Part shown: positions 7,063-12,545 of the stretch, one piece after another
Layout: the number at the start of each line of letters is the position of its first letter
Position numbering within the stretch: the stretch's first letter is position 1
Assembly: GCA_017417045.1 (NCBI GenBank)
Contig: JAFPZZ010000002.1
Coordinates: 62,001 to 126,000 of the forward strand
Source: Bacillota bacterium
GTDB lineage: Bacteria > Bacillota > Clostridia > Peptostreptococcales > Anaerovoracaceae
Direction of reading: 5' to 3'
DNA length: 64,000 nucleotides
Position numbers and translations under genes: made by a program
Notes under the pieces: generated by a model
Database searches by the model: none
What the model saw: the letters and a program-made list of their open reading frames with translations, nothing else
Told to the model about the DNA's origin: nothing

Positions 7063-8217
7063 ATGAAAGATATATGCGTACTCGGGTCGACGGGCTCAAT
7101 AGGGACCCAGACCCTAGATATAGCCGCGGCTTATCCTGACAGCCTCAGGGTAGAGGCCATGAGCTGCGGAAGGAACACAGAGCTCTTCAGGGAGCAGCTC
7201 AGACGCTTTAAGCCGCGCCTTGCCGCGGCGGCCCTGGAGGAAGACGCGCTGGAGCTCTCCAGGGAATTCCCGGACATACAATTCTACAGCGGCATAGACG
7301 GCATAAGCCGCATGGCGCGCGAGAGCGAGAGCTCTATCGTGGTCAATTCGCTGCTCGGCATGATAGGCATAAGGCCGACCTATGAGGCCCTGCTCGCGGG
7401 CAAGGACATAGCCTTCGCGAACAAGGAGACCCTCGTCGCCGCCGGTGAGATCATAATGAGCGCGGTGAAGGAGAAGGGCGCAGCCTTCCTTCCCGTGGAC
7501 AGCGAGCATTCGGCCATATTCCAGTGCCTTCAGGGCGCAGCCGGCAATCCCGTGAGAAAGCTCATACTCACGGCTTCCGGAGGCCCGTTCAGGGGATACA
7601 GCCAAGGGCAGCTCGAATCGGTATCTCCGGCTCAGGCTCTTAGACACCCGAACTGGAGCATGGGAGCCAAGATAACGATAGATTCCGCGACAATGATGAA
7701 CAAGGGCCTCGAGATAATAGAGGCCTCCTGGCTCTTCGGGATACCGGCGGAGGATATAGAGGTCGTGGTGCATCCGCAGAGCGCAGTGCATTCGGCCGTT
7801 GAGTTCATGGACGGAGCGGTGATCGCGCAGATCGGAAGCCCGGACATGAAGATACCCATAGCCTACGCGCTCTCATATCCGAAGAGGCTGCCGGAAGCCG
7901 GAAGACCCTTCAGCTTCACGGAGCTTGGGTCTATGACTTTCGAAAAGCCGGATCATGAGACCTTCCGCTGCCTTGCCCTCGCGTACGAGGCCATAGCGCG
8001 CGGAGGCAGCTGCCCCGCGGTGATGAACGCGGCCAACGAGGCCGCCGTAGCGGCCTTCCTCTCGGAAAGGATAGGTTTCACCGACATCCCGCGCATAGTG
8101 GAGAGCTGCATGGACGCCGACCCCTGCGAGGCGGCTGATTCCATAGACGCGATACTTGAAAAGGAGCGCCTCACCCGGGAGAGGGCGGAGCGCATCATAG
8201 AAGAGGCCGGGCGCTGA
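7063..8217 (+). CDS. dxr: 1-deoxy-D-xylulose 5-phosphate reductoisomerase
   Basis: Second step of the MEP isoprenoid pathway: converts DXP to 2-C-methyl-D-erythritol 4-phosphate using NADPH. The N-terminal GSTGSIGTQTLDIA is the nucleotide site; ANKETLVAAG, PVDSEHSAIFQCL and TASGGPFRGY carry substrate and metal ligands; HPNWSMGAKITIDSATMMNKGLE follows; the C-terminal domain contains NAANEAAVAAFL. Length 384 aa, normal. GGGAGAAG precedes the ATG. The 87-nt gap after cdsA holds only GC-rich sequence with no clear signal. Confidence 0.96.
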   Translation: MKDICVLGSTGSIGTQTLDIAAAYPDSLRVEAMSCGRNTELFREQLRRFKPRLAAAALEEDALELSREFPDIQFYSGIDGISRMARESESSIVVNSLLGMIGIRPTYEALLAGKDIAFANKETLVAAGEIIMSAVKEKGAAFLPVDSEHSAIFQCLQGAAGNPVRKLILTASGGPFRGYSQGQLESVSPAQALRHPNWSMGAKITIDSATMMNKGLEIIEASWLFGIPAEDIEVVVHPQSAVHSAVEFMDGAVIAQIGSPDMKIPIAYALSYPKRLPEAGRPFSFTELGSMTFEKPDHETFRCLALAYEAIARGGSCPAVMNAANEAAVAAFLSERIGFTDIPRIVESCMDADPCEAADSIDAILEKERLTRERAERIIEEAGR

Positions 8218-8234: not shown

Positions 8235-9011
8235 ATGCTTATGAAGATACTTACAGTTATTTTTTCAATATTTCTCTTCTGCCTGCTGATACTCTCTCAT
8301 GAGTTCGGCCATTTTGCCGTGGCCAAGCTCATAGGAGTCAGGGTGAACGAGTTCTCTGTCGGCATGGGCCCGCTGCTCTTTGGAAAGAAGAAGGGCGACA
8401 CCCAGTATTCCCTCAGGCTCTTCCCTATAGGAGGCTATTGCATGCTTCAGGGAGAGGATGAGACGGAGGACGGGGAAGAAGGGATCAGCGACGATCCATC
8501 TTCCTTCGCCAACCAGAGCCCCCTCAAGAAGATCGCCGTCCTCGCGGCGGGCTCGTTCATGAACATATTTACGGCGCTCGTAGTCCTGCTCATCATCTAT
8601 CTGGCGCTCGGCTATCCCTTCGGGGTATCCGCAAGGGCGGCCTTCAGGGTCATGGGCATCTTCGCCGCCGCAGTCAAGGACGGTCTCGTCCAGATACTGG
8701 GAGGAGAGGTCGGAAGGGAAGACGTCATGGGCGTCGTCGGCATGGTCGGCTTCATAAGCGAGCAGGCCAGCTACGGCTTTCTGAACGTGGCCTTCCTGCT
8801 CTGCATGATCAGCGTCAATCTCGGGATCATAAACATGCTCCCCATACCTGCGCTGGACGGCGGAAGGATACTCTTCGTCATAATACGCTGGCTCTCCGGA
8901 GGGAGGCTCTCCGCGAAAGCCGAAGCCTACGTGCATACCGCGGGAATGGTGCTGCTTTTAGCGCTGATGGTATTCCTGGCGATAAACGATTCGATAAATC
9001 TTCTCAGATGA
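8235..9011 (+). CDS. rseP: RseP-type site-2 zinc metalloprotease lacking its PDZ domain
   Basis: Intramembrane protease family that cleaves anti-sigma factors and signal-peptide remnants. The zinc motif HEFGH is at residues 22-26 in the first membrane segment, and the second motif, LDGG with D208, is in PIPALDGGRILF. The protein has only 258 aa, whereas RseP/RasP proteins have about 340-450. The loss is internal: after the second hydrophobic segment (FTALVVLLIIYLALGYP, ending near residue 130) the chain passes almost at once into the conserved post-PDZ part (AAFRVMGIFAAAVKDGL, then the GMVGFI region). Nothing with PDZ character lies between. The ATG at 8235 has a weak GAAGGA 14 nt upstream; ATG 8241 is an alternative start. 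Confidence 0.9.
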   Translation: MLMKILTVIFSIFLFCLLILSHEFGHFAVAKLIGVRVNEFSVGMGPLLFGKKKGDTQYSLRLFPIGGYCMLQGEDETEDGEEGISDDPSSFANQSPLKKIAVLAAGSFMNIFTALVVLLIIYLALGYPFGVSARAAFRVMGIFAAAVKDGLVQILGGEVGREDVMGVVGMVGFISEQASYGFLNVAFLLCMISVNLGIINMLPIPALDGGRILFVIIRWLSGGRLSAKAEAYVHTAGMVLLLALMVFLAINDSINLLR

Positions 9012-9033: not shown

Positions 9034-10113
9034 ATGAAAGCAACAAGACAGGTCAACTGCGGAGGCGTGCTCATCGGAGGAGGCGCTCCCGTATCCATAC
9101 AGTCGATGACGAACACCGACACCAGGGATCCCAAGGCGACGCTCGCCCAGATCGACAGGCTTGCGGAGGCGGGCTGCCAGATCATAAGGCTCGCTGTGCC
9201 CGACATGAAGGCCGCGGAAGGCTTCGCCGAGATCAGGAAGCTCTCGCCGCTGCCCATGGTCGCGGATATACATTTCGACTACAGGCTGGCTCTGGCGGCT
9301 ATAGACGCCGGAGCCGACAAGATAAGGATCAATCCCGGGAACATAGGCTCCGAGGAAAGGGTCAGGGCCGTGCTCGAGAGCGCCAAGTCGGCGCGCATAC
9401 CCGTGCGCATAGGCGTCAACGCGGGATCGCTCGAGAAGCCCCTTCTCGAAAAATACGGCCGCGTATGCGCCGAGGCTCTGTGCGAGAGCGCGCAGAACGC
9501 CGTCGAATACGCGAGGAGCTTCGGCTTCGAGGATATAGTCGTATCGCTTAAATCCTCCGACGTGGCGATCAATCACAAAGCTCATAAGCTCTTTAGGGAA
9601 TCGTCCGACCTTCCTATGCATATTGGGCTCACCGAAGCGGGCGCCTCGGAGGCCGCGGAGATGAAATCCGCGGTGGCCATAGGAGCGCTTTTACTTGACG
9701 GGATAGGGGAAACTGTGAGAGTATCTCTGACAGGAGATCCTCTCAGAGAGGTCATACTCGCAAAGAAGATACTCGCCGCCGCGGGCGTTAGGAGGAGCGG
9801 AATAGACCTCGTGTCCTGCCCGACCTGCGGAAGGACGAGGGTCGATCTTCCATCTATAGCGCTTAAGGTCGAAAAGGCACTTGCGCCTCTGTCAGAAAGG
9901 CTCGCTGGCGAAGGACGCTTCATAAGGGTGGCAGTCATGGGCTGTGAGGTCAACGGACCGGGAGAGGCCTCCGGCGCCGATTTCGGAGTCGCCTGCGGGA
10001 CGGGCTGCGGCCTGCTGATACGAAACGGCGAGATAATAAAAAGGGTCGATGAGGAAGAGATCTGCGATCAGCTGATCGCCCTCATCGAGGATGATATATC
10101 AGGTAATAAATGA
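9034..10113 (+). CDS. ispG: 4-hydroxy-3-methylbut-2-en-1-yl diphosphate synthase (flavodoxin type)
   Basis: Fourth enzyme counted back from the end of the MEP pathway's ring-opening branch: an oxygen-sensitive 4Fe-4S enzyme converting MEcPP to HMBPP. The TIM-barrel part begins TRQVNCGGVLIGGGAPVSIQ, followed by NTDTRDP, VADIHFDYRLA and IRINPGNIG. The C-terminal half holds the cluster ligands in SCPTCGRTRVD and VMGCEVNGPGEA. The length of 359 aa fits the compact bacterial form. AAGAGGTGA precedes the ATG. Its TGA overlaps the ATG of the following lipoprotein by four bases, coupling the two. polC or proS, common next neighbours in Firmicutes, are absent. Confidence 0.96.
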   Translation: MKATRQVNCGGVLIGGGAPVSIQSMTNTDTRDPKATLAQIDRLAEAGCQIIRLAVPDMKAAEGFAEIRKLSPLPMVADIHFDYRLALAAIDAGADKIRINPGNIGSEERVRAVLESAKSARIPVRIGVNAGSLEKPLLEKYGRVCAEALCESAQNAVEYARSFGFEDIVVSLKSSDVAINHKAHKLFRESSDLPMHIGLTEAGASEAAEMKSAVAIGALLLDGIGETVRVSLTGDPLREVILAKKILAAAGVRRSGIDLVSCPTCGRTRVDLPSIALKVEKALAPLSERLAGEGRFIRVAVMGCEVNGPGEASGADFGVACGTGCGLLIRNGEIIKRVDEEEICDQLIALIEDDISGNK

Positions 10114-12545
10114 GAAACATTAGAAAACTCATCGCCTGCGCGCTCGTAGCTGTGATAGTCATAGGCGCGCTCGCAGCCTGCGGGGAGATCCCTCAGGCTC
10201 CTGAGAGCACCTCTCAGGAAGATGGTGAAAAAACGGAAGACGATTCGTCGGACTTATATACCTACGACGCACAGCTTCCCATAATAGACGGTTCGATCTC
10301 AGCGGAGGCGCTGGCGGACGCGTTCTATGGCAGTCTGGACAGAGAAGGGGCTGCCGGTCTTCGCGTGTCTTTTTCCGGCACCGAACGGGCGCTTGAAAGG
10401 CTCTCCGAAGGGGAGATAGACGCGGCCCTAATAGCGGCGGACAGTAAGCTCGCGAGCAGCATCGCCTCCGGAGAGATGGGAGACCTTAAGATCTTTGAGC
10501 TCGCCAGGGACGCAGTCGTGTTTGCCGTGTCAAAAAACAACATGGTCGACGGACTCTCCTCTGAGCAGATAAGGGATATATATTCTGGAGAGATAAGCAG
10601 CTGGAAGGACGCCGGCGGCGCGGAGGTCCAGATCAAGGCCTATCAGAGGCCGGCAGGATCCGAGCTCAGGGCCCTCATGGAGGCCGTCGTCATGGACGGC
10701 GAAGAGGCTCTGGACGAGCAGCTTAGGCCGCGCTACAGCGAGGAGGAAGGAGTCTATTACGAGCAGTCGGGCTACGACGCCGCGCCCGCGGCAATGGGCT
10801 ATGCCTTCTGGTTCCAGGCGGCGCCCGGATATGAGAGCAGCAAGCTTCTAAGCGTCGACGAAGTTGCGCCTTCTCCCGAGACCATAGCCTCAGGAGAGTA
10901 TCCCTTCAGTTTCGGCTACTATCTCGTGGTCAAAAGCGACGATCTGGGCTTTGCCGGAGCGGACCTTCTGGCCGCATACATGCAGGGTCCCTTCGTTCAG
11001 GACCTGATCGCGGGCTCAGGCTACGTAAACCTCAAAGGAACTCCGGCCGCGGATGACGCGAAGCCCTCTCCCGATCAGCCGGAGGAAGGAAGCGAGCAGG
11101 CGGAGAATCAGACGCCTTACAGCAACAACTCCTCGAAGAGCTCGCTTCTCAGTTACGCGGCAGCGGCTTCGATAGAGTTCAAGACAGAATATCAGGGAGG
11201 CAAGAAGAGCTCCCCCAACAGATACGTCAGTATAAGCGGACTCGCAGACGCCGAGGTGCAGGAAAAGATCAACGCCAGGATAGAGGAGCTTTCCGACGAA
11301 TATACCGCGGGAACTTCGCTTCCGTCATACCGGGGGCTCGACGCTTCGGTTGAGCAGTTCGAAGAGAGCTTCGAAAAGAGTTCCAGCATAGAGCTCAGCT
11401 TCGCCGCGGGGGACATAGTCTCCTTCAGGGCGGAGAGGACCGCCGAGATAGACGGCCTGACGATACGTGAGATCAGCGGCCTCAGTTTCGACCTGAGGAC
11501 GGGAGAGGAGCTGAGCATAGGCGATCTCTTCGGCTCAGGCTTCGATGTGAGCGCAGCCGTCGACAGCGCGGTCAGGCGTTATATCAGGGAGAATATGCTG
11601 GATTCCGCCGATCCCGCTTCCTCCGAGAACCTCATACGGCCCTTCGGCGGGATAAACGCGGACCAGCCTTTCTATCTTTCCGACGAGGGACTGAACGTAG
11701 TGATAGACGGCAGCAACGAGGAGTTCGATCTGGGCTCTGAGACGGAATTCTCGCCTATAGTCATCACGGTGGGCTACGACCTCCTGGACGGATCCTTCAT
11801 AGGCGCCAGGGACAGCAACCCCTCGATCTACGAGGAGCCCGAGTCCATACCTTACCTCTTCAAAGGAAACAGTTACGGCAGCGTCACCGAGCTCATAGAG
11901 CACTACAACGGCAGCGACGAGCGAATAAGCTTCAGCTCTGTATATACCTATCCGGCAGGCTTCCCGAAGAAGCTCCTGGGCAGGATCAGGGAGGACGTCC
12001 TCGCCGCGCTTCCCAACGCGGCTTACTACGAGGAAGTCCTCGCAAGCGGCATGTCGGAGCTCGATTCTCTGAGCTTCTTCGCCGTAAGCGAATGCAGTCA
12101 AGTTGGAGGATATTACTGCGTAAGGCAGCGCTTGATCACGCAGGACGCCGATACCGGAGAATTCAGCGAGCGGACTGTCCTGAGCCTCTATGATTCCGAG
12201 CTCGAGCCTGCCGAGCTATCAGCTCTCTTCAGCGAAGGCTCGGACTGGGAGAGCGTCGTGCTCAAGGCGCTGAGCTCAGCGTTCAAAAAGGATATCACCG
12301 ACGAGCTGCTCTATACCTACAACGGAGAGAAGGCCGCCGACCTGATGGAAGGCCTCGGCTTCGTCCTGAGTCCCGACGGAATAGATCTCATGACTTCACC
12401 ATTTGAGGTCGCGAAGCGCGGGAAGAAGGGCTCCAGCATGACCCAGCTCAGCTTCAGTATGAAGTACGCTGACTTCGGCGAGGGGAGCATGGCCTTCGCG
12501 CCGGTGGGCGGGCAGGATGTGAGCGAGCAGTCTGGTGAGATCTGA
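10110..12545 (+). CDS. Large lipoprotein: PstS-like binding domain joined to DUF3298/RsiV-like modules
   Basis: An 811-aa predicted lipoprotein. A basic start and hydrophobic stretch lead to the lipobox A-L-A-A-C24. Residues about 50-308 look like a phosphate-type periplasmic binding protein (PstS family): FSGTERALERLSEGEIDAALIA, VFAVSKNNMVDGLSSEQIRDIYSG, SSWKDAGG, YQRPAGSELRALME and a FGYYLVVKSD segment. A low-complexity linker (about 309-340, rich in P, E, Q, N, S) leads to a part with FDLRTGEELSIGDLFGSG, the DUF3298 motif of RsiV/PdaC-type extracytoplasmic domains. Residues about 580-811 look like a second, more diverged copy. No Pst transport genes are nearby. The role is unknown; sensing an anion or cell-wall fragment outside the membrane is a guess. 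Confidence 0.75.
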   Translation: MRNIRKLIACALVAVIVIGALAACGEIPQAPESTSQEDGEKTEDDSSDLYTYDAQLPIIDGSISAEALADAFYGSLDREGAAGLRVSFSGTERALERLSEGEIDAALIAADSKLASSIASGEMGDLKIFELARDAVVFAVSKNNMVDGLSSEQIRDIYSGEISSWKDAGGAEVQIKAYQRPAGSELRALMEAVVMDGEEALDEQLRPRYSEEEGVYYEQSGYDAAPAAMGYAFWFQAAPGYESSKLLSVDEVAPSPETIASGEYPFSFGYYLVVKSDDLGFAGADLLAAYMQGPFVQDLIAGSGYVNLKGTPAADDAKPSPDQPEEGSEQAENQTPYSNNSSKSSLLSYAAAASIEFKTEYQGGKKSSPNRYVSISGLADAEVQEKINARIEELSDEYTAGTSLPSYRGLDASVEQFEESFEKSSSIELSFAAGDIVSFRAERTAEIDGLTIREISGLSFDLRTGEELSIGDLFGSGFDVSAAVDSAVRRYIRENMLDSADPASSENLIRPFGGINADQPFYLSDEGLNVVIDGSNEEFDLGSETEFSPIVITVGYDLLDGSFIGARDSNPSIYEEPESIPYLFKGNSYGSVTELIEHYNGSDERISFSSVYTYPAGFPKKLLGRIREDVLAALPNAAYYEEVLASGMSELDSLSFFAVSECSQVGGYYCVRQRLITQDADTGEFSERTVLSLYDSELEPAELSALFSEGSDWESVVLKALSSAFKKDITDELLYTYNGEKAADLMEGLGFVLSPDGIDLMTSPFEVAKRGKKGSSMTQLSFSMKYADFGEGSMAFAPVGGQDVSEQSGEI

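Follow-up and report, generated by a model that had tools for sequence, protein, structure and literature searches.

A PDZ-less RseP-type site-2 protease in its ancestral operon and the repeated loss of the PDZ domain in Bacillota

The standard account of how RseP spares uncut substrates is that its PDZ region acts as a size-exclusion filter, an account that rests on mutants of the E. coli enzyme.

The closest described relatives of the protein analysed here are RseP, RasP and Eep (TIGR00054, Group I of the site-2 proteases, S2Ps), with which it shares the HExxH motif, the extended LDG motif, the MRE β-loop, four transmembrane (TM) segments, the H1 helix and the uppS-cdsA-dxr-rseP-ispG operon, and from which it differs in lacking a PDZ domain in the interval from TM2 to H1, where it is ~87 residues shorter. 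In Group I enzymes the H1 helix follows the PDZ domain and is in contact with the substrate (Miyake et al., PMC7728848). The PDZ domain is regarded as a size filter, and its disruption in E. coli leads RseP to cut RseA without site-1 cleavage (PMC10202637; PMC7728848). The PDZ-disrupted mutants for which this is reported (Kanehara 2003, Bohn 2004 and Inaba 2008, as cited in PMC10202637) resemble the present protein in having an RseP core with the PDZ function removed, but they are laboratory-made and derive from an enzyme with two PDZ domains, whereas here the loss of a single PDZ domain is natural, repeated and long-lived. For the single PDZ domain of Bacillus RasP a filter role is suggested only (PMC7728848). 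SpoIVFB and MjS2P (S2P Group III) also have the S2P catalytic core without a PDZ domain, and Group III enzymes carry a CBS domain (PMC10202637). Both PDZ-free S2Ps from other groups and PDZ mutants made in the laboratory have been described before; for RseP orthologues, a natural and recurrent loss of the PDZ domain was not found in the literature searched, which covers few subscription journals and gives weak evidence of novelty.

Sequence and predicted structure of the 258-residue RseP

The window, which is the whole stretch of 64,000 nucleotides analysed, carries the following features at the rseP locus.

7063-8217, + strand: dxr, upstream operon neighbor (DXP reductoisomerase Pfam domains; synteny)
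8235-9011, + strand: rseP, PDZ-less site-2 protease of 258 amino acids (TIGR00054 201.6 bits; PF02163 188.8 bits; no match to a PDZ family)
8298-8312, + strand: HEFGH codons, residues 22-26, encoding zinc ligands and the catalytic Glu (sequence; HE.GH invariant in PDZ-less and PDZ-bearing rows)
8343-8447, + strand: MRE β-loop, residues 37-71, two long strands with a GMGP motif (AlphaFold2 secondary structure; G43-P46 invariant)
8520-8606, + strand: TM2, residues 96-124 (AlphaFold2 helix)
8607-8618, + strand: four-residue turn, residues 125-128, where relatives hold the PDZ domain (~87-residue alignment gap; AlphaFold2)
8619-8699, + strand: post-PDZ amphipathic helix, residues 129-155, putative counterpart of RseP H1 (AlphaFold2; alignment to PDZ-bearing sisters; hydrophobic moment 0.51)
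8853-8864, + strand: LDGG codons, residues 207-210, part of the extended motif N200-P203-P205-D208, with D208 as third zinc ligand (sequence; invariance)
9034-10113, + strand: ispG, downstream operon neighbor (GcpE 452 bits; synteny)

The TIGR00054 score lies well above the cut-off of 147.55 bits, and in the genome search the matches at this gene extend over model positions 1-120 and 309-420 only. Peptidase_M50 is the sole family found in the Pfam search of the protein (188.8 bits), which detects neither a PDZ family nor a CBS domain. Solved RseP structures match the query in two segments, one on either side of the PDZ domain, as for A. aeolicus RseP with residues 5-114 and 299-429. The reading frame is open and the four membrane segments are retained. 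Residues H22, E23, H26, N200, P203 and D208 are invariant over 66 rows, and N195, N200, P203, P205, D208 and G209 are invariant in the alignment. The size of the gap is defined by a 96-row alignment in which the interval N110-G157 has 48 residues in the query, 130-169 residues (median 135) in the PDZ-bearing relatives (n = 73) and 40-70 residues in the PDZ-less rows (n = 23), with no overlap between the two classes. The 48 residues of the query set against the median of 135 give ~87 missing residues, in line with the 80-100 proposed in the first-pass annotation, which had also placed the ORF, its coordinates and the intact motifs (HEFGH at 22-26, LDGG with D208) exactly and had correctly described an unshifted gene in its normal operon place.

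The AlphaFold2 model, built on 66 alignment rows (pLDDT 90.3, pTM 0.86), proceeds from a first helix through the two-stranded MRE β-loop (37-71, with strands 37-53 and 56-71) to TM2 (96-124), a four-residue turn, the helix 129-155 and the remaining helices, and the protein stops at the last TM helix. No PDZ fold is present in residues 125-200 of the model, the region in which the first-pass annotation held that such a fold would contradict its reading. The best structural match is RasP-EcsA; B. subtilis RasP (9a6w, an integrative model) superposes over 256 of the 258 residues at 1.6 Å with a Z score of 32.2, A. aeolicus RseP over 246 residues at 1.6 Å and E. coli RseP over 250 residues at 2.4 Å. 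The helix 129-155 is amphipathic, aligns with the helix directly after the PDZ domain in relatives and is taken as the counterpart of H1 in Group I enzymes, so the excision would have taken the PDZ domain and left H1 in place.

Judged by its TIGR00054 score, the core tree and the operon, the window protein is assigned as an RseP orthologue. Because the PDZ domain that defines Group I is missing, it is classed as a PDZ-less RseP variant rather than a standard member of Group I. It does not belong to Group III, being of other ancestry and without the CBS domain of that group; only ~160 residues of the model superpose onto SpoIVFB and MjS2P, at 3.6-3.9 Å. Among other PDZ-less rseP genes, those of L114 (genome G003) and L113 (G025) encode proteins in which the loop joining the MRE strands to TM2 is extended by long insertions, either acidic or rich in Ser/Ala.

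Distribution and independent losses of the PDZ domain

The survey covers about 1,300 Bacillota genomes, with counts based on a single versus a split model match among the matches listed and the gap itself measured in the 96 rows. All six genomes of the query's own genus (g1; G000-G005) are PDZ-less, the other five proteins being 46-76% identical to the query. The own family comprises 350 genomes, 326 with a match, and 12 of these are PDZ-less among the matches listed: the six of the genus, G025, three of the 12 genomes of genus g107, one of the 17 of g5 (G093) and G375. In eleven other families of the order (~180 genomes) no PDZ-less RseP was seen among the matches listed. The class sample adds all seven members of family f64, one genome of f77 (G703) and two of f67 (G694 and G714). 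Family f64, which in the tree includes Acetobacterium bakii, corresponds to the Eubacteriaceae (Acetobacterium and relatives), and one uninterrupted PDZ-less match is found in 36 of 40 genomes, complete ones included, with fragmentary or weak matches only in the remaining four. The loss is fixed throughout the Eubacteriaceae. In the other classes (~376 genomes) three PDZ-less M50 proteins occur among the matches listed (L265, L266 and L267 in G1049, G1034 and G1181); they are standalone proteins and are not counted as losses because they lie outside the rseP operon, and G1034 has a full-length match elsewhere.

The rseP gene of the window lies within the ancestral uppS-cdsA-dxr-rseP-ispG operon, and every lineage counted has its PDZ-less rseP within uppS-cdsA-(dxr)-rseP-ispG, complete or as far as the contig or the lineage preserves it. 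The dN/dS values are 0.04-0.19, with dS near saturation in several pairs, and rseP is under purifying selection. Each of 21 PDZ-less genomes searched has one RseP gene above the cut-off. The first-pass annotation advised looking for a second, full-length RseP in the source genome; none is found, the window gene being its only RseP and the other M50 protein being an HEFAH protein unlike RseP.

A decaying gene, an assembly error or an internal deletion limited to one assembly, the last of which the first-pass annotation regarded as fatal to its reading, is extremely improbable. The assembly of the source genome is fragmented (58 contigs), but the same PDZ-less form is present in the six genus genomes, in the 36 of 40 Eubacteriaceae genomes and in further lineages, and this recurrence together with the purifying selection and the invariant catalytic residues refutes decay or artefact. 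A possible case of decay is seen elsewhere in family f67, where an RseP-like match (L204; G837:C14:35936-36625) contains TAA in frame at two places, has a truncated start and may be a decaying PDZ-less gene.

The tree, calculated from 252 core columns with the PDZ columns left out, requires eight state changes, of which at least seven are forced by branches with SH-aLRT of at least 95. There are accordingly at least seven, and at best estimate eight, independent losses of the PDZ domain; the survey of relatives suggested in the first-pass annotation extends from a genus-wide deletion to recurrence beyond what a single window could reveal. The PDZ-less RseP of the source genome is nested among the PDZ-bearing RseP proteins of the family, and some losses are nested inside PDZ-bearing genera, with the PDZ-bearing G346, itself a member of g107, as the sister of the PDZ-less trio in that genus (support 99). 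In AU tests, which used 36 rows and a simpler model than the 96-row tree, a single clade for the PDZ-less forms of the family, as expected from a single origin or horizontal spread, is rejected (p-AU 0.0003), and g1 with G025 as one clade is rejected more weakly (p-AU 0.035). The PDZ domain is probably the ancestral state since it is present in nearly all relatives. At least seven removals of the domain, the remainder of the protein being conserved, amount to a "no gate" experiment repeated in nature. One loss spans an entire family, which includes cultured acetogens whose genomes are complete, and the role of the PDZ domain and its replacement can be tested with natural PDZ-less and PDZ-bearing sisters of one genus (G347 versus G346).

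Sigma factors, site-1 proteases and control without the filter

If the PDZ domain is a size filter as in E. coli, the enzymes described here would be expected to have an open gate, in which case control would lie in site-1 cleavage, in substrate design or in a partner. The explanation preferred, with somewhat better than even confidence, is that of an open-gate S2P that would owe its selectivity to site-1 cleavage and to the retained core. The PDZ domain would have been excised between TM2 and the amphipathic helix H1 with the catalytic residues kept, and the enzyme would cut membrane segments that have only a short extracytoplasmic part left, the proposed substrates being signal-peptide remnants and site-1-cleaved anti-sigma factors. 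Selectivity would be shifted to the site-1 step (PrsW, signal peptidase) and would also arise from the recessed active site, with its MRE β-loop and H1 helix, and from properties of the substrates. The proteolytic activity, the relaxed gate and the substrates are in each case presumed, and the gating results would apply by analogy, coming as they do from E. coli RseP with its two PDZ domains.

The source genome contains two ECF sigma genes on contigs C35 and C40 (L234:687-1989 and L235:617-2013). In both cases the sigma gene overlaps a second gene, whose product (265 and 324 amino acids, respectively) is a membrane protein with an M23 peptidase ectodomain at its C terminus and a single membrane span as read from the sequence. 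The first-pass annotation had proposed a search for anti-sigma factors; no known anti-sigma domain is detected in these two proteins, and they are taken as candidate anti-sigma factors, possibly of a kind with a cell-wall sensor. Two PrsW homologues (~118 and 55 bits) are candidate site-1 proteases. Because two pairs of ECF sigma factor and M23 membrane protein and two PrsW homologues are retained, regulated intramembrane proteolysis has probably been kept despite the absence of the PDZ filter.

These genes bear on the proposal that anti-sigma proteolysis was given up, that RseP now clears signal peptides and small membrane proteins, and that a useless filter was lost, which is considered improbable. 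Clearance of signal peptides is among the tasks of S2Ps (PMC10202637; likewise the C. difficile RsiV paper), and zf-HC2 anti-sigma factors occur less often in PDZ-less genomes, in 5 of 21 compared with 15 of 28, and in 1 of 6 in genus g1 compared with 4 of 4 in neighboring PDZ-bearing genera, all counts that ignore kinship. Against this reduced role, ECF sigma factors occur in all PDZ-less genomes tested, PrsW homologues in five of the six members of the genus, and both sigma/M23 membrane protein pairs in the source genome itself. Of the three outcomes that had been offered in the first-pass annotation, namely an unregulated enzyme, another gate or action mainly on signal-peptide remnants, all are possible, and the retained sigma pairs and PrsW homologues argue against a scavenger only.

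An ungated S2P may be harmful where anti-sigma factors with bulky ectodomains remain, hence the idea of another gate, in which a partner protein has assumed the blocking role of the PDZ domain and the enzyme stays tightly regulated. This is judged unlikely. It has a precedent in BofA and SpoIVFA, which block the PDZ-free SpoIVFB (PMC10202637), and ECF sigma factors with bulky one-pass membrane partners are retained; however, the operon is ordinary and no neighbor travels with the PDZ-less state. The two-part lipoprotein downstream, conceived in the first-pass annotation as a partner, fails as a general one, since it adjoins ispG in four of the six genus genomes and is found at no other PDZ-less locus examined. 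It is an 811-residue protein (10110-12545, + strand) composed of a phosphate-binding-like domain (PBP_like_2) and a PdaC/DUF3298 region resembling the RsiV ectodomain. EcsAB was considered as an alternative gate; the literature assigns Ecs, a transporter, to aerobic and facultative Firmicutes (PMC2996298). A PDZ domain supplied in trans was also sought with the PDZ part of the RseP model in the 21 PDZ-less genomes, where no free RseP-type PDZ stood out. The matches are almost only to separate ORFs of ~370-590 amino acids, with a few weak ones in shorter frames, and there is no obvious free replacement because these ORFs have the size expected for HtrA/Ctp-type proteases.

A further proposal concerns the cause of the losses, which would have been selected by bacteriocins of the EntK1/LsbB type or other PDZ-docking agents while the essential core was kept. 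The PDZ domain of RseP decides EntK1 sensitivity (PMC9672952), and the losses are recurrent, clean and lineage-specific, but fixation across the Eubacteriaceae needs no bacteriocin pressure, and this escape is regarded as quite improbable. The losses are also relevant to RseP in its roles as a receptor for bacteriocins and a target for drugs. A broader suggestion, tentative and on the doubtful side, is that PDZ gating is dispensable in nature, with many Clostridia running sigma/anti-sigma signaling through a filterless S2P whose specificity is provided by site-1 cleavage or a gate in trans, and with the loss repeatedly selected, for example as escape from PDZ-docking bacteriocins.

Three loci in PDZ-less genomes (L224, L225 and L228 in G002, G003 and G093) are clusters that combine an ECF sigma gene with genes for unassigned membrane proteins and for a PrsW homologue, a gene order like that of a self-contained sigma/site-1 protease cassette.
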